Positions 67 to 54,634 of a stretch of 64,000 bases of DNA are shown here, in pieces. Origin of the DNA: Polytrichum commune (Eukaryota > Streptophyta > Polytrichopsida > Polytrichales > Polytrichaceae); assembly GCA_950295325.1 (NCBI GenBank), contig OX485809.1, positions 4,962,001 to 5,026,000 on the forward strand, given 5' to 3'. Every line of letters starts with the position of its first letter. The first letter of the stretch is position 1. Position numbers and translations under genes: made by a program. Under the pieces are notes generated by a model. That model ran no database searches. It saw nothing but the letters and a program-made list of their open reading frames with translations, and was not told the origin of the DNA.

Positions 67-1648
67 CAATGACAAACAAAATTGAGTACTTTGTTCAAGA
101 AACCAACTTTGACAAACCATTACAGACAATGCAGATTTGTTTTTGCAAAGCTAAAAAATGAGTTAGAAAACAAATAGAGCTATGTATATATATGCAAAGT
201 TATACATCATATTGAAAACTAGATAATCTTCTACAATTTACAATCACCAACCACATACAAGTACTCATTATTGTTCAATCTACTTCTTTGAACTTCAATA
301 ATTTGTTCAATAGCCTTTAACAACCAATACAACAACAAATCCTTTGTGCATACTCTCATATAGTGCCATATAATCTTTTTCACTAAAAATAGAAAAAACA
401 ATGCACACACGCTCCCACAATTCTTCAATTCCTCATGGAGGTGTAGAAAACTCATTCAAACATCGTTTGAGAAGAGTCCAAAAATGCTCCATGGGATTCA
501 AATCTGGTGATTGAGCAGGCCACTGGAGAAATTGGAATGGCTACAATTTCAACCATTCTTGCACCCTCTTACTTGTGTGTCTGGATCATTATCCTATTGA
601 AACATAACATTGCTTGGAACCAAATTGTAGTGCCTGATTGTAAACCACAACAGGTTTTTCAAAATAAAGTTGTACACTTGTTGATCCATTATACCTTCAA
701 TTCTATGCCAAGCTCCAAGTCCAAAAGTTGTCATACAGCCCCAAATCGTGATATGTCCATCACCATGTTTCACTGTTTGTTGGAAATGGTGCAGTTGTAC
801 ATGCTCTCCATATGTTATCCAACACTAGGACCTACCATCAGAATTAAACACGTTTATCTTTGTCTCATCACTGAAAATAACGCGTTTCCAATCATGAACG
901 GTCCAATTTGCATACATGCGAGCAAACCTCACCCGTGCATGAACATGTCTTCTTGTCAACAACAATTTCTTCTGTTGCACATGTGCAATGAAACCTTCCC
1001 ATCGCAAAGCATGTCTCACAGTTACATCAGACACATTTTTACCTGATTCATTTCGAATTTTTGTTGCCACCTTTGATGCAACTCCCAAACGCCCTTCCGT
1101 AAGCAAGGTGACACATCTCCGCCTCTCTCTCGCAATTTGGTGTCATGGGCGCCCTCCTTTTTGCCTCTCAAGCTCCCCCGCGATCTCCTTTCTAAGCCCA
1201 CCCACCCAAGATTGACTTATCCCAATTGCATCCGCAACTCGTGTTTAATTGCCATTCCAAAGTTTCCGACGCTTCAAGCTTTTGCGACGCAGATGAACGA
1301 GGCGTACAAAAGCAATTGCACAAACGCTCACTAATACACAGTCTCCAATCGCAGAGCGTCACAATGCACGAACGATCTAACGAAATCGACCACAAATCAA
1401 TATGCAAATGAAAAATCGAAGATCGGTTGATGGCTCCAAACAAAACTGAGTCTATGAACCCTAGCCGCTTTGACACGGCTATTGTCAAAAACCCTAATTC
1501 TTTTTACATTTTATTTTTACATACATGAAATAGACTACTTTGTACACATACTTCGCTTAATCACTTTAATGATATCAAATTTCAATCGCCAGAGATTGCT
1601 TTGCGAAATTGAAGTTCTCACTCGAGTACTCAATTTCGTTTGTCACAA
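67..1648 (-). mobile_element. Full-length Tc1-type (DD34E) DNA transposon, degenerate
   Basis: The element is bounded by inverted repeats of about 21 bp: TGACAAACAAAATTGAGTAC at 70-89, and its complement (one mismatch) ending at 1645. Each end is flanked by TA (65-66 and 1649-1650), the target duplication of the Tc1/mariner superfamily. Its length of about 1.58 kb is the usual size for Tc1 elements. A broken transposase gene fills the interior on the minus strand. Plant mariner-like elements are usually DD39D, whereas the residues here fit DD34E. The element is dead because its gene carries several frameshifts and stops. Confidence 0.85.
231..1260 (-). pseudogene. Tc1-like transposase pseudogene
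   Basis: Read from about 1260 down to 231, three broken blocks follow the order of a Tc1 transposase. First comes a helix-turn-helix region ending near GRLGVASKVATKIRNESGKN (about 1100-1040). Next is the first catalytic Asp block, WKRVIFSDETKINVFNSDGR (about 890-830), then WGCMTTFG, then DNDP at about 590. The last block is QWPAQSPDLNPMEHF (about 525-480), which holds the final Glu. Counting from the second Asp to this Glu gives 34 residues if one frameshift is bridged, so DD34E. Stops interrupt the Q before DNDP and the segment after EWLKL, and reading-frame changes occur near 835, 580 and 1130. No functional protein can be made. Confidence 0.88.
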
Positions 1649-31421: not shown

Positions 31422-34400
31422 TTATTGCATTGCTGAGGGCTTGTACAATAGGTTCGTCACATATTTAGATCGGAACCGGTTCGTTGCACTAAGAACTAGA
31501 ACCGAGCAATTTGCTTGCTCCTTCTCCACAAACAAGTGCTTCAATACTACATGCTGTGGGCGAGGTAGGCTTTCAGAGGCGACATTCAGGACCGTCATAT
31601 GGAGTTGTGAAGGGATTGTGGGGGGCTCTTTCGTGAAATCGTCCGGTTCGGGCACAGGGTCGTTGTAGCTTGAATCTGGAGACATTGGTGCATCAAATCC
31701 AGCGACACTCTCAAGGTTGTCGGGTACATAGTCCTGCAATGACAAATAAAAGAATCAAGTTCAACATTCATGTTCAAATTTTCTTTTCTACCAAAAACAA
31801 ATAGCAAACCTTTTTTGATGCTCATACAGGGACCAGGAATCCCTCCTAGTGCTCGCTGCAGGACAGAGAGGAGAGGTGAATAAGGTATGTGTGCCTAAAA
31901 GCAACACTTCTAGCAAGTCTCTCTTTTCCTGGTCTTACAAAAGTTGGAAAAAAACTATAAACTTCTGGCATCTCTACAAATGGGTGAAGCACACGGAGAG
32001 AAATAAAAAAGAAATAAACCATATGTGCCCAACAAAAATCCGCAAAGTTGTTCCAAGGTTTAAGGCTTTTATTGTCGAGTAGGGGGGTCTATTCCCTCAT
32101 GTTTATACTGTGAACCTATCTCTACATCCATTGTGAACCTACCATTTTGCATCTGTTAGATGTAATCAACCTAGATTAACTGGGTAGTGCACAGTTTTAG
32201 GACTAGAACTAGATGTTGGTAAAAGGCTGGTATCAGTTTTAGGCACCAGTACCTCAAACAAAACAAACTCACTCACCAACCAACTAAAACCCCCGGTAAC
32301 TTAAATCCAGAAAAATGCAAATACAACTACACACCACAACCCTCCCATCCTCTTTGCCCTCATTCTGAACAAAAGGCAACTTGAATCCAAAAGGAGACAC
32401 ACCAAATTGCCCCTTTGTATGATCAACAGAAAAGACGACCAGACCCCAGGTATACACAAATAGTCAGCAAGGATCTTAATTGTCACAACCCGGGGTAGGG
32501 GATGAGAGCTTTCCTGAATACGATGAAAGCTTTCCTGAATACACTTATTGAGGCCTCGAATTTGAACTGTCATTAAACATTGACATCAAATACTCACCAC
32601 CTGACCCACATACCTTTGGTGTGCCCAAAAACTCATCCCTGCCCCGTTTTAAACAACTCTAACCCAACAGGGTTTCGGAAAGACTTCCCCAAATTTCTAT
32701 ATTTGGTGCCATGGATAGAGCCCACTCACAAAAGGGAGCAGTAGCCAAAGGCGAACTACACTAAATTATCCTATTAGTGTGGGCCACATAATTATCAACC
32801 CATGCCACATTTTCTTTTTGTAGGAAATTGATGTGACTATTTTAATTTATGCCAATTTTTCCCTTGAACTAATACTCAAGGTATTGGTCGAAAGTCTCCA
32901 GGAAGATTTAGGGAGGACCAGGGTCTTGAGCCCACATTATTTCCACCCTGACTAGACAATTTGGATGGCCAACATTGATTATTAACACACTCATTTTTCC
33001 ACCTACACTAATAGGACACTTTAACGTAGCTCTTCATTTGTGCTTGCTCTGCTAGGAGCTCGTGTTTATGTCTGTCTATCTATCTATCCATCTTCAAGAG
33101 AAGTGAGATACTTTCCAAAGGCTCCTGGATGAGGAAAGCCAACAGAGCTTACTACCCGTGCGTCAGGCAGAACTAAATTGCAGAAATTACAAAAACAAAT
33201 GAAACTTGTAAGGGAAAAACTCACAGTCACATCCAGCAAATTGATCATATCGTTTACGTCATCTGACACTGTAGCCAAGTCGGGTGAGTGCCTCCACTCG
33301 CCATCGACGAAGAACTTGAATTGATAAACCCCTGGTTGAAGCACTTTGATCAATGTGAAGTCCCTCCCTGATCTGTGTAGCAATTGCCTGTGATACTATA
33401 AATTGCTGCTCAGTTTTAGTATGCCAATCCTCTTCCACAATGTGGAAACATCACATACTATATACTGCATGCAGATGTAACCCTAAACCCTAAACCCTAA
33501 CCCTACATGATTCTTGGTTGGGAGTTGGTTGTTTTGCATACAACACCTTCCAAGTTCGGAAAGTTTACAGTGCAGACTCAGAGAGAGTGTGGAGGTTTGA
33601 TGCAGAACATTCTATTTTGGTTCATCGAGGGTCAAACTCATTTTGGCATGCCAAGAGGTGCTAAAAAGAGTTTGGCCCTCGATAAACCAAAATAAATCAT
33701 TCAAATTCAAACACGATCTCTGAGCATTCATCACTTTGTATACAGACATTATTGATGTTATATGCAAAACAACGAAAATAAAATCATAAGGGACCAACTC
33801 TTGACGTAGAGTCCTATTGAGTTGGGGGATAACTCTAACTGAGACAACAAGTAGAATCTAAAACCCATTATTTGTTTGGAGTGACTGCTGTTGAATCCAG
33901 ACAGTTTTTATTTTATTTTTGACAGAAGGCCAACAAACCAATCTTAAAGAATTCAGACATTCTCAGTCCCTGTAACGACACATGTGCTGTGTGGATGTAA
34001 CCTGTGCTCCAAGTAAAGATGGGTTTGGGATAGACTTAAAAAAATGATTGGCAAACGTAAACTTTTCATTCTGGACTAGGGGCCACTTTACACTAGAGCC
34101 CGAGGGCCTGTGACCATTGGAATTTTAAGAACTTTCATTGGTGGAAAAGGCCAAGACTATCCCACTTCACTTAACACTAGGCTTGAGGGCCTGAGCAATC
34201 AAGGAAGTTAGAATGGATGAAGAACCTACAAGGAGTCCTATATGGGATGTATAATGTTTCATAGCCTACTGGATTTTGTGCCAAGCCCATCTCAAATAGG
34301 TGGATCTACCACAAAACCAGGTGACCATGACACTTAAAAATCTCACAACCCTTGATTTATTTTTACTTACTGTGTGAAGGGGCCCAAGTGAATAGGATTC

Positions 34401-40800: not shown

Positions 40801-41219
40801 GTGACCATATAACACAATGATATGTGCAAATAACATGTTTGTTGCTTCTGTAATGTGCATGCTCGCAGGTTGGCAACAACGAGGCTTCTGCTTCATTGGC
40901 AAACATACTCACCAGCACACCTCTTGCTCAATTGGCCATGTATGTGACGTACTGTGGCATTACTCCATATTTAGAAGAATATGTGTACAGGGGATTTTTG
41001 TTGTCGTCTTTGTCAAAGTACATGAGATGGCCATTTGCAGTTGTGGTGAGTGCCCTCGTATTTTCTGGCAGCCATTTCTCATTGCAAGGTTTTCTGCCAC
41101 TATTTTTGGTAGGTTGTTGCTTAGGAACGGCGTATACGTGGACCGGAAACTTAGCTACATCATTTGTAATTCACAGTTTATACAATGCAGTTGTGCTCTC
41201 AAAGGCCTTCACATCTTAA
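37825..41219 (+). CDS. CPBP-family (CAAX protease-like) membrane protease, probably plastid
   Basis: Four exons, all with phase-0 introns and GT-AG borders, give 336 residues: 37825-38088, 38492-38659, 39661-39888 and 40869-41219. Residues 1 to about 60 are basic and rich in Ser, Arg and Leu with almost no acidic residues, as in a chloroplast transit peptide. Several hydrophobic segments follow, at about 102-130, 150-165, 195-212 and 275-330. Exon 4 contains the complete CPBP/Abi signature. Motif 1 is EEYVYR (E256, E257, R261), motif 2 is F285-S-G-S-H289, and motif 3 is H322-S-L-Y-N326. These are the predicted intramembrane catalytic and metal-binding residues of the family. The substrate is unknown; plant members mostly sit in plastid membranes, so location here is inferred. 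The gene is divergent from KINB. Intron 1 holds a tandem duplication that includes its acceptor. Confidence 0.92.
38103..38495. repeat. Tandem duplication in CPBP intron 1 covering the 3' splice site
   Basis: CGGTGGTTGAGTTCCTTTTG (38103) and CGGTGATTGAGTTTCCCTTTTGG (38298, quoted in part: CGGTGATTGAGTTTCCC) begin two similar units of about 190 bp. Both contain GAAACTTGTGGTGTTGCATA, and both end in CGGAATTGTTGAG followed by TGTGTAGGTAG. The second unit's TAG is the used acceptor at 38491. Use of the first unit's TAG would reach an in-frame stop within six codons. Confidence 0.82.
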
Positions 41220-43403
41220 AAGCTCTTAAGTGTCATTGTGTGTCATGGCCTTTTCTCTGCCACTTTTGGGAGTTTATAGTCTGTCAGGAGCTTCGACTGG
41301 TTTCTGGGATAACACATTCTTGCCAAAATGTTTCTCAAAAGATCATGCTATTGAAAATATCCACATAAGTAGCATACTTCGTTGGAATCTTATTGGTAGT
41401 CAAACACGAGAAAGTTCTTCGAGCAAATTCTCTTGTTCGTATGGCAGAGAACCATAGGCTCAAGAATCTGTAATGGTACCTCACTTCAACGCAATTTCTG
41501 TTGTTCTCATGTTGTCGAACTACTACTATTAGCACCTGAGCGAATTGCACATTGCCTAACTTACTCGCTAGAAACAATATGCTGAGATGAATTAAGCTCG
41601 GAAGCAGCAGTTCAGGGTTTAGGGTTTATTGATTAGAGTGTATGAGCTGCAGATGACACTATGCAAACTTCAGAGTGATTGTTGGATTTTGGGCGAGTAT
41701 TTGGAGTGATTTATATTGATACAACGCTTAATGAAGAGCACTAAAAATCAAGACCACATTGAGCTACATCCTGAGCAGATGTCCAGACTTTTGGGATGTT
41801 TGAACCCTTCCGTTGACGAGCGTCTTTGCATCGACCACAATATAATGTACTCGGTAAGAATCTCCCTGTTGCTTATAAGTAGTCTCCGGTGCTTGCACTC
41901 AAAATCAGGGGATTAGGCCCCAGACCATATCTTCAAAAGTAGGAAGAAAAACAGAGTTACTATGCTTTCTGCTGAACTTGGTTCTTGAAAATAAACACCA
42001 AACGCTTCACCTCGGAAACAGATCAACAACCTTGCGAAGTGCCTGAACATATCCGTTAACCCACCTCACAAACTCGTGCTCGCCGTACACTCTGTTGTGA
42101 TAAGCTTACAAACAACATTGTGAGGCGACAACTTTCTTGAGAAACCCCACCTGGCAACCCACATCAACTTTTTAATTCACAGTTTTCGGAACAGGGTGAG
42201 ATTAGGAACTACATTGAGAATGGCGGGAAGATATAACTTAAGCTCAGGTGTAAGTATTATCCACTTGAGACACCGATGACTGAAATTTGAATGACACTGC
42301 AGTATGTATGAGATAACTCAACTTTACGGAGTTGCTAAATACATCATGTTACTTGCACCATCATGTTTGTACGATGGAAGAGTTGCCATGAGTCACAGGT
42401 CCCAGAGCTTGAAAAAAACGAGGGAAAATGTGGTACAGGTTGGTCATGTCATATTTTCAGCAGCTTTTTGCGGCAGAGTAAGTTGAAGTTTACATAAATG
42501 ACATACTTACATATTTTAACATGGACCTGAAAGAGAGGCGGTGAATGGACATCGCATGTCAGGGTACAAGACTCTGACGTTCCTTTTTCTTTTCTTTCTT
42601 TTCTTTCTTTTCATATTTTAACATAACCCATCAAAACTGCGGAGAGGGCCTACACTTCATCTAGGATTCCTTTCCCCTTATCCCCGCATATAGGACGTTT
42701 ACGTTGAGTTTGCCACTCTGGTTTTGCCATTTCTTCATTCATTTCATTTCAGTTTAGGTTTGCTGTTGTTTGTCCCTGCCGACCTGGCATGGTCGGGAGT
42801 TCCTTTTCCTTCCGAGTGTGTCACATTGATTCCTCAGTAATCTTGGGTTTCCTGTAGTTTGCCTTTCGGAACTTAGTTCAAGAATGCTAATAAGTTGCTG
42901 ATAGTTTTCTTGTCAGGTAGGTGAAATCTGTAAAACCTTTCTGGGGGTTCTCTGGGCTTAGTTCCCGCCAAATACATAGGTAAGTAGCGATTGAATGTGC
43001 AACAACAACAACAGAATCGTGCAGAACAGAATGTCGAGAAGTCAGAGGGAGTGATCATTATCAACGATGATAATTTGAGGAGAAAATGGAGTTGCTGAAC
43101 ATTATAGGGGGATGATGATTTGTGATGATGATGGAGCTAAGAACGCGAGCTGGGTTTCAGTGGACATTAAAGTGCAATGCACTTCCGCAGCCATGGCGGA
43201 TGTGAAAGATTGTTGTTATGTGCCAAATTGGTATGGGTGACCTCGGAGGTCTCGGAGAAGGGGCGAAGATGATGCAACACCTTATTATTGCAAAGTAGAG
43301 GTGCAATGGAGATGAGGCAAAGGAAAGGTAAAAGGGAAAAGGAACTCGCATTGAAGTGAGTGGTGGTGGGATTTATTTGGAGATTGATAATTGGGGGTTG
43401 GCG
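41220..43403. other. Intergenic: CPBP 3' end and CENH3 upstream region
   Basis: No further exon is visible between the CPBP stop and the CENH3 start. A TTTAGGG doublet lies near 41615, and a CTTTT-type pyrimidine repeat at about 42583-42614. The CENH3 promoter should lie in the last kilobase. I cannot mark its elements. Confidence 0.5.
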
Positions 43404-46400
43404 ATGGCGAGGAGGAAGAGCAGCGACCCCCAAAGAGCTGGGGGTGCTTCTACAAGTGCTGCTGGAGCTGCGCACCGACCCACCAGGAAGCACCGGTGGC
43501 GACCAGGCACAAAGGCGTTGCGAGAGATTCGATATTATCAAAAGACTTGCGACCTCCTCATTCCTCGTCTCCCTTTTGCCCGCGTGGTCAGTGTCTTCCT
43601 TCCCTTCCCTTCCTTCTTCAATGCCTGCCCCCTCCTTCCTTCCTTCTCTGCATTGTGTTGTGACTGCTCAATTTTTGCTTCTCCAACCCCTTCGGATGGA
43701 CATGGCTGTGGGATTTTTGTACAACTTTAAGAACCCAACCTTAGATGATATGCCTCCGATTCCCAGCCTTGGTAGGTTACCCATGTGCAAGGGCAGTCTT
43801 TGTGCCGATGACATGAGGGTGAGATTGAACGAGAAGTGACTCCATAAGCTCGGAGACAAGAGGGTTTTTGAAGCATTTGAAAGGAAGAAGGGTTTGAATG
43901 AGTCGTTTCTTCACTCCTTTTAATGCCTCTCTTCTCTTCCTCTGGGCTCAATTTTTTTTTCTCCAACTCTCTCTCTCTCTCACCACAGATTTTGGCCGGT
44001 TACAGCACCTGCCTGTATGGGATGAAGACATAGCTGTTGGATTAAAGAACACAAGCTCAGATGAACATGCCTCCGATTTCCAGCCATGGTAGGTTAACCC
44101 ATGTGCAAGGGCAGTCTTTGTGCCAATGACATCATGCTGAGATTGAACGAGGAGTGACTCCTTAAGCTCGGAGACAAGAGTTTTTGAAGCAGTTGAAGGA
44201 AGAAGGGTTTGAAATAGGTAGAGTGATGGAAGCCGCGCTTGTTTCTCCACTCCTCCAACGCCTCCCCTCTTCTCTGCAATCATTTTTTTGGTTCTCCAGC
44301 ACTCTCGCTCTCTTTTCTCTTCAGATTTTGGCCGGTTTCACCATCTGCCTGTGTCGAATGAGGACATACCTGTGGTATTCTATTACGAGTTAAACAACCC
44401 AAGCTTCGATGAGTATACCTCCGACACCCCCCCCCCCCCGCTACCCTACCAAGTACAAGGGCAATATTTATTCCAACAATATCGCGTGAACTCCATTACC
44501 TCGAAGACATGAGGGTTTTTGAAGCATTTGGAAGGAAGAAGGGTTTTAATGGGTTTGAGTATTGGAAGTCCCTCTCGGTTGGCATATTCTTACACCCTAC
44601 ATGTTGTATCGGATTAGGACTTGACTGTGGGATTCTTGTACAAGTTCAAGAACCGAATCTTAGATGAATCTGCCTCCGATGACCCTCTATAAGCTCCGAG
44701 ATAAGAGCTTTTGAAGCGTTTGAAAGGAAGAAGTGTATATTATCCTGAGCTACTTTTGTCTGTTTCAGCAAAGAAAATCCTCTACATTGACTAAACTTTA
44801 GAGCCTGCTCTCATCAAGTTCTACCGGTATTCAGGAGCTGTATGAGAGCATCAAATTTCTCTGGAAACAAAAAACTGGAACGAAATGACACAGTGGTGGT
44901 GGCTCATTCCTGACAACTCTTGGGGCTTGTTATTCAAACATGGGAGCTTATTTACAGCATTCTTCTCAGTCTGAAGAATGTGGCTCTCTCAGCATTTTTT
45001 CTATCAAACTTCTTCACTGTGATATGGTGCTTTGCGTAACATACATCACATATTTCCAAAGAAGATAAAATGGATGGAGATTATTCAAGTGGACGCTCCC
45101 ATTGGAAATTATAACCTGAAGGTAATGTGTCTGCTGACATGTGCAGGTCAAGGAGATTTCAACTCAATTTTCTGCAGAGGTGTCTCGATGGACAGCGGAA
45201 GCTTTGACAGCCCTTCAAGAGGTATGATCTATGCAGCATTATTTGTTGGCTGGAGATTAGTGAGCAGTTTGAATTGAAAAGTTTGGTGAATGAGAGACTT
45301 TCATACAAGCTTAGGTTTGCACCAGTGTCAGTCTGGTACCGTCTTTTTTTTATACTATTCTGGTATTTATAATGAGGATTTCACATTTTTTGATACCAGT
45401 ATGGTACTTGATGGTATTTTTGTTTTTGATACCATTCAGGTCTATACTATGCAAAAACCCACATACTTATGCAAAATCGCCCTAGTATCAATATGCTTTA
45501 GAATGGTTTTCACCCAAACAATAACTCGGGTATACAAAGATTCTCTCACCTTGAACTACCCACCAGATATCAGTATTTGACTGGTATTACAATTTTGATA
45601 CCTATGGGGAGTTTCTTTGATACCATTGTTGATGTTGATTATAGGTACCATGCATTCACTTATATATTAGACCAACATCAGTTTGCACCAATGTTGGACC
45701 AATATGTAGGTGAATGCATCGTATCAAAGAACCCACCCAGCTGGTATCAAAATTCTAATACCAATCAAATATTGGTACTTGGTGGGTAGGTCAAGGTGAG
45801 AGGATCTTTGTATACCCGAGTCATTATTTGGGTCAAGACCATCCAAACACCATCTTCATACTAGGGTAGTTTGACCTAGGTATGAAGGTTCCTGCATGGT
45901 AAGTTATATAGACCGAAATCGTTTTAAAAAAACCCTCAAATACAGGTATCCTAACAATATTGACAGAATGTGAAATGTGAAATTATATATACCTGAGTGA
46001 TATCAGAAAAAAATTTGGTACCATTCCAACTCTGGTTTGCACTCACGATTTTGTGATAGCTAAGTTTGAACATGGGGAACTCCAACTTGCATATCATTAT
46101 TACCTTCAGTTTTCTGCGTGTATACCAATTGCACATTTGAAAGAGGTTAGCTCCTGTGTACGTTTGTTTGCAGGCAACTGAGGACTACTCTGTCCATTTA
46201 TTTGAAGATACCAATTTGTGTGCCATCCATGGCAAGCGAGTCACTATAAGTAAGTAATTTCATTCTACTAGTTTGATCATTCTATGTTACCTATGCAGGT
46301 GTAAAACATGTATGAAAAGATCATGGGTTAGTGATATGCAAATTTGATCAGGAAAACATAGGCTCACATATGTGTCAGGTCGAATGTTGAAGTCTATTAG

Positions 46401-46726
46401 TGCTTCATTACAAACTTCCAAAGGGTGGTGTACAATGTCATTATCATGTAATATATATGTATTGATATTACATAACAATCTGCTTCTTATCAGTGTCATG
46501 TGGCACAGTTGAATAAAGGAGAATGACAAAGCAAAGAATTATATTGGAAATATATGATGTTATTTCAACAGTTCATAAGTTTTACGGGATAATTTGTAAG
46601 TTTGTCATGTTTCTTTACACAAGTATTGTATCAATACTGATATGCCTAACATGTGGAACTGGCGCAGTGCCCAAGGACTTACAGTTGGCTAGACGGCTAA
46701 GAGGAGTCATTGACAAAAGTTCATGA
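43404..46726 (+). CDS. CENH3: Centromeric histone H3 variant (CENP-A homologue)
   Basis: This histone replaces H3 in centromeric nucleosomes and specifies kinetochore assembly. Four exons, 43404-43586, 45147-45221, 46174-46249 and 46668-46726, close in frame to 130 residues with GT-AG borders. The last intron splits the ATG codon of Met112. The fold is clear: [14 protein letters not shown] (alpha-N), [12 protein letters not shown] (alpha-1), [15 protein letters not shown] (loop 1), [20 protein letters not shown] (alpha-2), then [20 protein letters not shown] (loop 2 and alpha-3). It is CENH3 rather than canonical H3 for three reasons. Loop 1 has one extra residue and carries R75-W76 where H3 has RF. 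The tail lacks the ARTKQTARKS sequence. The protein ends RGVIDKSS. The tail before the alpha-N helix is only about 33 residues, short for plants. ATG context GCGATGG is good and no upstream in-frame ATG exists. Confidence 0.95.
43660..44735. repeat. Imperfect tandem repeats in CENH3 intron 1
   Basis: About four diverged units of roughly 200-340 bp lie here. Shared blocks are GATATGCCTCCGATTCCCAG-like sequence, CATGTGCAAGGGCAGTCTTT, CTCGGAGACAAGAG, and GAAGCATTTGAAAGGAAGAA. Units start near 43680, 44015, 44345 and 44610, and the last is shortest. Many overlapping open frames arise here on both strands. None resembles a known family. Confidence 0.75.
45312..46044. mobile_element. Foldback element filling most of CENH3 intron 2
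   Basis: The two halves are long mirrored arms of about 340 bp, meeting near 45680. The left arm has GGTTTGCACC at its start, CCTAGTATCAATATGCTTTA, AACTCGGGTATACAAAGATT and CTCACCTTGAACTACCCACC. The right arm has their complements in reverse order, for example GGTGGGTAGGTCAAGGTGAG and ATACCCGAGTCATTATTTGG. The element is about 730 of the 952 bp of the intron. Single-arm relatives occur at 5145, 24400 and 58795. Confidence 0.82.
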
Positions 46727-53273: not shown

Positions 53274-54299
53274 CTATCGCCACCGTGAAGGCCAGAAGCC
53301 ATGGATCCAGTATCCTGTTTTCCAGTTATCAAGAGCAATCACCTTTCTGACAGCCAAGAAGCCGATGGTGGTGATGACGAGCATCAACATCCTTTGTGCG
53401 ATCTTTGAGCGGATCTGGGGGGCGACATGCGTTACGAATGCGAGCAGCACTCCCACGACCGTGTACATGAAACCCACTACAAAACCCTCAGTTCCGAGCT
53501 GCATCCCTGAGCCCTGGTAGAAGAACATGATTTTCCCTGGGTTGTTGCGGTCCTGCATGAAGAGCGGCATGTTGCGGATGATGTTGAACATGCCTCCGGA
53601 GACGCTAAAAAAGTAGATGACCAGCACAAACACACAATATAGGGCGGGTTCACGCATTGGCGAGTCGGGGTGAGTCATCACCTTGTACATAAAAGGAGTC
53701 ACCGCCACGAATACAGCGCCCAGCGCCCACATTTGCGCCTTACTCAAAGGTGGAGGCCGCTCGATGGGACCACATGGCTGCTTTGTTTTCGCCGTCACAA
53801 AGCTTGCCAAGCCCTCTGCGCTGCGAGGAAACTGGCCCTGAGCCATCTCCTCGCTCGCCTTGAAGTCTCCGCTGCCCATTGGAACGTATCTAACATGGGG
53901 AAGGGCTTGGATCCCGAAAAGTTGGAACACCCCTTGCGCTTGCTTAAATTCTAGGTCACAGAAGAACACCTTCTCGGCCGAGGGTTGGCCCTTGTGGTGC
54001 TTGATATAGGCTTGTGAAACGAGCCCATACTCGGCCCGAAATTCTTCGAGCTTCAGGTCCGCGTTGCCACGAAGCTGGTGGGCGTCGAAAAAGAGGATCA
54101 AGGCGTACAGGCGCGGGCTCGTGGTGGACATGAAGCGCCGGAAGCTATTTTCGTCCAAGCGAATGACTCCATCTTTGGATCGTGATTGCAAGTGCATAAG
54201 CTCCGCCACGCGTTCCTCATTTGTTTCTGCCTCAGAAAAGCTCGACAGAAGGGCCAACACAAAAACCCCGAGGAGAACACCATACTGAAATCCTTTCAT
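53274..54299 (-). CDS. OST3/6: Oligosaccharyltransferase subunit OST3/OST6
   Basis: This is an accessory subunit of the ER oligosaccharyltransferase that transfers the lipid-linked glycan to Asn of nascent proteins. It is one uninterrupted exon of 341 residues; as I recall, the Arabidopsis genes are also intronless. A signal peptide (about 1-24) precedes a lumenal thioredoxin-like domain to about residue 180, with YALILFFDAHQL, YGLVSQAYIKHH and FFCDLEFKQAQGVFQLFGI. The CxxC redox pair of yeast Ost3/Ost6 is not present in this domain, a loss I believe is shared by plant members. Four C-terminal membrane segments follow at about 193-212, 222-244, 277-299 and 307-327, and the tail ends FWPSRWR. 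The start chosen is the first ATG. The frame remains open 25 codons further upstream but without ATG. Confidence 0.95.
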   Translation of the reverse strand: MKGFQYGVLLGVFVLALLSSFSEAETNEERVAELMHLQSRSKDGVIRLDENSFRRFMSTTSPRLYALILFFDAHQLRGNADLKLEEFRAEYGLVSQAYIKHHKGQPSAEKVFFCDLEFKQAQGVFQLFGIQALPHVRYVPMGSGDFKASEEMAQGQFPRSAEGLASFVTAKTKQPCGPIERPPPLSKAQMWALGAVFVAVTPFMYKVMTHPDSPMREPALYCVFVLVIYFFSVSGGMFNIIRNMPLFMQDRNNPGKIMFFYQGSGMQLGTEGFVVGFMYTVVGVLLAFVTHVAPQIRSKIAQRMLMLVITTIGFLAVRKVIALDNWKTGYWIHGFWPSRWR

Positions 54300-54634
54300 C
54301 AGGAGAAAAGAGAGGCCCTGGGAGCAATTTCTTCCAGAGAATGTCACAGCTGTCCTTGCAGCAAGGATAATCACTTACACAACCATCTCCAGCATGACTT
54401 CTCTGCAATTCAAATTTGGGTGTACTACCATTCAGTTACCCTATTGCAAAACGTATCCACCGAGAAGAATGTCTTAACTACTCTATCCAGTTTACTAAAC
54501 AGAGAAAAGGAAGCAAACTGTTACTAACCCTCTTTTCACAAGATGACAAGACAAATCTCCAAAAAATCAAATGAAAAATCGGTCACTTGCCCTAAACTGT
54601 CATCAACAAACTATTTGGCAGTACAACATTTACA

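Follow-up and report, generated by a model that had tools for sequence, protein, structure and literature searches.

CENH3 has been distinguished from ordinary histone H3 by a loop 1 which is longer than that of H3, by the absence of glutamine 69 and phenylalanine 85 and by a placement in trees with CENH3 and apart from H3 (PMC4359364). The diagnostic sites are given as 69, 85 and 118 in this source and as 77, 85 and 108 in PMC11092101; the diagnostic threonine of H3 is numbered 118 in the former and 108 in the latter, and its absence is a supporting but non-defining sign. The N-terminal tails of 67 plant CENH3s span from 23 residues in pea to 194 residues (PMC4314295). Pea CENH3 is in use at centromeres according to ChIP-seq data, and this plant possesses two CENH3 variants as well as metapolycentric chromosomes (PMC10027222). 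In cereals, alpha-CENH3 consists of seven exons compared to nine in Arabidopsis, and a beta-CENH3 exists with four exons, three introns and a long first exon carrying a shortened tail, the protein of cultivated barley comprising 126 residues overall (PMC8603533). Furthermore, the Physcomitrella protein (there named CENP-A) occupies centromeres constitutively, and plants depleted of it show missegregation (PMC6433463). In the main texts of the literature searched, neither a moss CENH3 sequence nor a moss tail length was found.

The window analysed here is a stretch of 64,000 nucleotides of Polytrichum commune (contig OX485809.1, positions 4,962,001 to 5,026,000). It contains a gene which, with high confidence, is the CENH3 of a land plant, apparently the sole one, with a presumably complete tail of 33 residues and a core that is most likely read by a KNL2-type protein. 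This complete-looking CENH3 with its genuinely short tail belongs to a known family. As a member of a lineage with poor sampling, it provides a useful comparison case that is unsurprising in kind.

Structure of the gene and its surroundings

The gene is located on the plus strand and is composed of four exons which encode 130 residues and end with a TGA at 46726. Exon 1 (43404..43586) comprises the ATG, the entire N-terminal tail (codons 1-33, 43404-43502) and the start of the histone fold up to V61. Exon 2 (45147..45221) covers V62-E86 including loop 1 (S70-W76, 45171-45191), exon 3 (46174..46249) A87-I111 plus one base of the next codon, M112, and exon 4 (46668..46726) the other two bases of this codon and the residues up to S130, followed by the TGA. 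All three introns (43587..45146, 1560 nt; 45222..46173, 952 nt; 46250..46667, 418 nt) are of the GT-AG type with cumulative phases of 0, 0 and 1, and the exons join in a closed reading frame, in full agreement with the four-exon model of 130 residues proposed in the first-pass annotation. In addition to translation, exon 1 is supported by its splice site and exon 2 by alignment, and exons 1 (residues 1-63), 2 and 3 were recovered at this locus by a genome-wide protein search. Exon 4 (59 nt) was not reported by this search; its support consists of the acceptor site, the frame and the likeness to the end of the H3 of the same genome (MPKDIQLARRIRG). The two H3.3 genes of Polytrichum that were read have their introns at positions other than these three. 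With its four exons the gene differs from the nine exons of Arabidopsis and the seven of cereal alpha-CENH3, and it resembles beta-CENH3 in exon and intron number as well as in a first exon with a shortened tail (PMC8603533). However, beta-CENH3 originated as an additional copy next to alpha-CENH3, whereas one copy was found in Polytrichum. The C-terminus (46707-46726) reads RGVIDKSS, is longer than the RGERA of H3 and may matter as the end which is read by CENP-C-type motifs; its VIDKSS lacks the final tryptophan of the Arabidopsis and rice CENH3 sequences.

Two of the introns carry repeats. Most of intron 1 is occupied by two to four diverged direct copies of repeat pieces (43690-44760), mostly 255-350 bp from start to start, and this region matched itself alone when used as genome query. 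In intron 2, a foldback repeat has inserted at about 45300-46050, and its inverted arms (45498-45602 and 45743-45847) are 87% complementary; this repeat is common in the genome with at least 83 matches (40 of 2893 candidates scored). Such an accumulation of repeats would fit a decaying copy whose working counterpart lies in sequence outside the assembly, especially as a missing match is no proof of absence. On the other hand, the 130 codons run without stop or frameshift over three GT-AG introns, and seven contigs (77.9, 70.3, 59.2, 59.1, 52.9, 44.7 and 42.1 Mb) hold about 406 of 408 Mb, the contig C8 having 147 kb, which makes decay of this copy extremely improbable.

Elsewhere in the window, Pfam matches mark a Tc3-type transposase fragment (828-1142, minus strand), two pieces of AMPK beta-subunit domains (31425-33395, minus strand), an Rce1-like CAAX protease piece (40854-41216, plus strand) and OST3/OST6 (53280-54374, minus strand); four of the other nine stretches scanned gave no Pfam match. 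Some further observations concern the genome as a whole. Contig C1 begins with TTTAGGG repeats, and a single AUX/IAA gene is present, which speaks against a flowering plant. A LEAFY exon matched chain 4bhk best (199.3 bits), followed by 2vy1 (178.6 bits), which we take to be the LEAFY proteins of Physcomitrella and Arabidopsis, respectively. The two LEAFY genes read have a D at the position of Arabidopsis H312, presumably a moss sign, and the one read further keeps an R at 345, where Physcomitrella presumably has a C. The moss-like LEAFY and the seven large contigs together suggest a moss with n=7.

Identity of the protein and its relatives in the genome

The protein matches the Pfam Histone family over residues 5-123 with 137.4 bits (E 3.7e-40), far above chance. 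In the alignment loop 1 exceeds that of both H3 and H3.3 of the same genome by one residue, and R75-W76 is present with TAEAL directly after it; here the extra loop residue and the position of the arginine-tryptophan pair had been correctly recognised beforehand. RWTAEAL stands in CENH3 where the H3 of Polytrichum has RFQSSAV and its H3.3 RFQSHAV, and Q69, Q77 and F85 of H3 are replaced by A59, T67 and W76. For this stretch we assume RWTAEAL in Arabidopsis, RWTLEAL in rice and RYTAEAL in maize. The CENH3s of these three plants have in common with that of Polytrichum the MAR-K start, the basic end of the tail, an RWTAEAL-type transition from loop 1 to the start of helix 2 and the presence of one gene.

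The threonine of the FEDT motif of H3 is retained as T99, and RVT is retained too. This is no bar to membership in the CENH3 family, since fission yeast Cnp1, an accepted member, keeps both. Cnp1 (120 residues) is also similar in its short tail, and its loop 1 is longer still than that of the Polytrichum protein.

Overall similarity discriminates less well. In the fold, the identity is 68.5% to Cnp1 and 64.9% to the H3 of the same genome, compared to 63.5, 60.4 and 56.7% to provisional sequences of rice, maize and Arabidopsis CENH3, respectively. Among solved structures Cnp1 is likewise the best match (132.1 bits, E 1.2e-37). Since ordinary H3 chains reach 130.8 bits and trail by only about 1 bit, this ranking alone cannot tell CENH3 from H3. 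With the provisional Arabidopsis CENH3 as query, no plant CENH3 was named among the best 60 of 155 matches in the PDB. A tree of the fold was built from nine sequences, of which five were provisional. It places the protein with the plant CENH3s at only 69/84, and the AU test on the same nine sequences does not reject the alternative position next to H3 (p-AU 0.283). The phylogeny proposed as a check is thus only weakly in favour of CENH3 and, taken alone, does not settle the assignment.

A divergent H3 variant without a role at the centromere would be in line with this tree, with a fold identity to the H3 of the same genome at least as high as to the three plant CENH3s, and with the conserved T99. 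It would not account for the longer loop 1, for RWTAEAL and for A59, T67 and W76. Moreover, monocentric division in a plant should require a CENH3, and no other candidate was found in the genome. The genome-wide protein search, whose counts are lower bounds, yielded 22 matches and no second CENH3 locus. All 22 are accounted for: full-length H3 without introns occurs at 14 places, three matches are last exons of H3 genes with introns, two are the pieces of a single degenerate H3, and three are exons of CENH3. The degenerate H3-like sequence is located at C3:27314549-27314892, and the first of its pieces contains two TAG stops. An H3 variant is therefore very improbable. As overall similarity and tree are weak, the identity as CENH3 rests on discrete features, for which loop 1, RWTAEAL and the two to three diagnostic residues stand, and on the fact that no rival candidate was found; on these grounds the designation given in the first-pass annotation can be kept. 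With one locus found, Polytrichum also differs from pea with its two variants (PMC10027222).

The N-terminal tail

Taken as everything that precedes PGT, the tail consists of 33 residues compared to 43 in the H3 of the same genome, which agrees with the earlier estimate of about 33. By the same measure the CENH3 tails of maize, rice and Arabidopsis in the provisional sequences have 61, 69 and 81 residues. The tail had also been called unusually short; this holds true in relation to H3 and to the Arabidopsis sequence, but is too strong for plants in general, since the published plant tails begin at 23 residues (PMC4314295). The overall lengths of 126 residues for the beta-CENH3 of cultivated barley (PMC8603533) and of 120 for Cnp1 point the same way. 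The tail starts with MARRK, an H3/CENH3-type start, and ends with the basic stretch RKHRWR. This MAR-K start and basic end fit the description of plant tails in PMC4314295, and pea with its 23 residues is a short-tailed plant example; both likenesses are drawn from published descriptions.

A longer tail of the usual plant type would result if splicing joined an upstream coding exon to the open frame that precedes 43404. This frame is open back to 43332 and no further, and contains five AG dinucleotides with 5, 15, 30, 35 and 45% pyrimidine in the preceding 20 bases. The best of these candidate acceptors, at 43383, equals with its 45% the weakest acceptor used by the gene model (46668), the three used ones having 45, 55 and 70%; the other four candidates reach 5 to 35%, and the 203 bases 5' of the ATG (context GGCGATGGCG) contain 34% pyrimidine. 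Fourteen other ATGs are present at 43112-43312, but every frame stops before 43404. Since MARRK already represents an H3/CENH3-type N-terminus and 23-residue tails are known from plants (PMC4314295), an additional upstream coding exon appears unlikely from the sequence, and an incomplete tail has to be considered as quite improbable. The tail of 33 residues is accordingly taken to be complete. In this respect the claim of a complete gene stands with regard to the MARRK start and the upstream region, and is weakened by the one candidate acceptor that is as good as the poorest in use.

Between the MAR-K start and the basic end the tail has no resemblance to the H3 of the same genome (shuffling P 0.88 and 0.91 for the window side and the other side, respectively). 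Residues 6-26 can be aligned with the tails of grass CENH3s. For maize, shuffling gave P values of 0.0076 and 0.0012, for rice 0.033 and 0.014, and for Arabidopsis 0.11 and 0.064. These values carry no correction for four comparisons, come from provisional plant sequences and concern a stretch in which A, G, S and T abound. The likeness to the grass tails is suggestive and may serve as a lead, but no more, for the reading that the short tail represents the old form of land plants. In that case one exon would have contained three modules, namely the MAR-K end, the small R-x-GG-ASTS...AAG and the basic end, and the tails of flowering plants would have been lengthened by sequence and introns inserted between these modules. 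This reading is a tentative one and rather unlikely on the present evidence. If true, the 33 residues would hold everything that the basic loading and kinetochore machinery of a plant needs.

Loading of CENH3 and the role of a short tail

The Polytrichum protein, which we expect to be expressed and localised at the centromere, would replace H3 in centromeric nucleosomes, and these would be marked by its fold, in which loop 1 is longer and residues are of the CENH3 type. The nucleosome core and the C-terminal end would most likely be read by a KNL2-type protein that bears a CENPC-k-like motif; this protein may thereby license the loading of new CENH3. The tail keeps the MAR-K start and, next to the fold, the basic stretch, and has little in the middle.

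A SANTA domain was detected on contig C1 (28585555-28585746, minus strand, 34.0 bits), a different chromosome from that of CENH3. About 3.2 kb downstream on the same strand (28582279-28582395), an open frame of 415 residues contains the motif TSRSGRLLVPPLAYWRSQ, which we take to be a CENPC-k motif; used as genome query, the stretch matched itself alone (one candidate scored). Because SANTA domain and CENPC-k-like motif are near each other and on the same strand, both probably belong to one KNL2 gene. Their presence fits a loading through the histone core.

For CENP-C, NASP and Scm3 the searches were negative or off target, and absence is implied by none of them. As a candidate for CENP-C, a lone PF11699 match was rejected, since it reached 28.3 bits in comparison to a cut-off of 29 and four prokaryote controls matched too. 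Moreover, the open frame that was matched (187 residues, C3:47214583-47214723) is of the cupin type, by its look an ordinary small cupin and possibly of bacterial or fungal origin. NASP (PF10516) had no match in the genome at 1e-3, which does not imply its absence. Assembly in yeast uses Scm3/HJURP (PMC7475239), whereas no match to Scm3 (PF10384) was obtained in the Polytrichum genome by a search which also matched 0 of 14 controls and by which absence is not implied.

It is chiefly the histone fold, not the tail, on which the loading of CENH3 depends (PMC7475239), so that shortness of the tail is no necessary obstacle to loading. However, changes in the N-terminus cause chromosome elimination in plants, which counts against an irrelevance of the tail (PMC7475239), and a study in cowpea suggests that tails steer type-specific loading (PMC7738545). 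A short tail may limit which partners can bind, as had been supposed for this gene from the start.

The tails of plant CENH3 are of importance in haploid induction, as with tail-swap lines (PMC7475239), as well as for segregation in hybrids (PMC4314295). In bryophytes all four meiotic products survive, and for this reason centromere drive is not expected there (PMC11687628). A bryophyte with an apparently sole CENH3 and a tail of 33 residues would therefore provide a natural test of the minimum tail that a plant needs.
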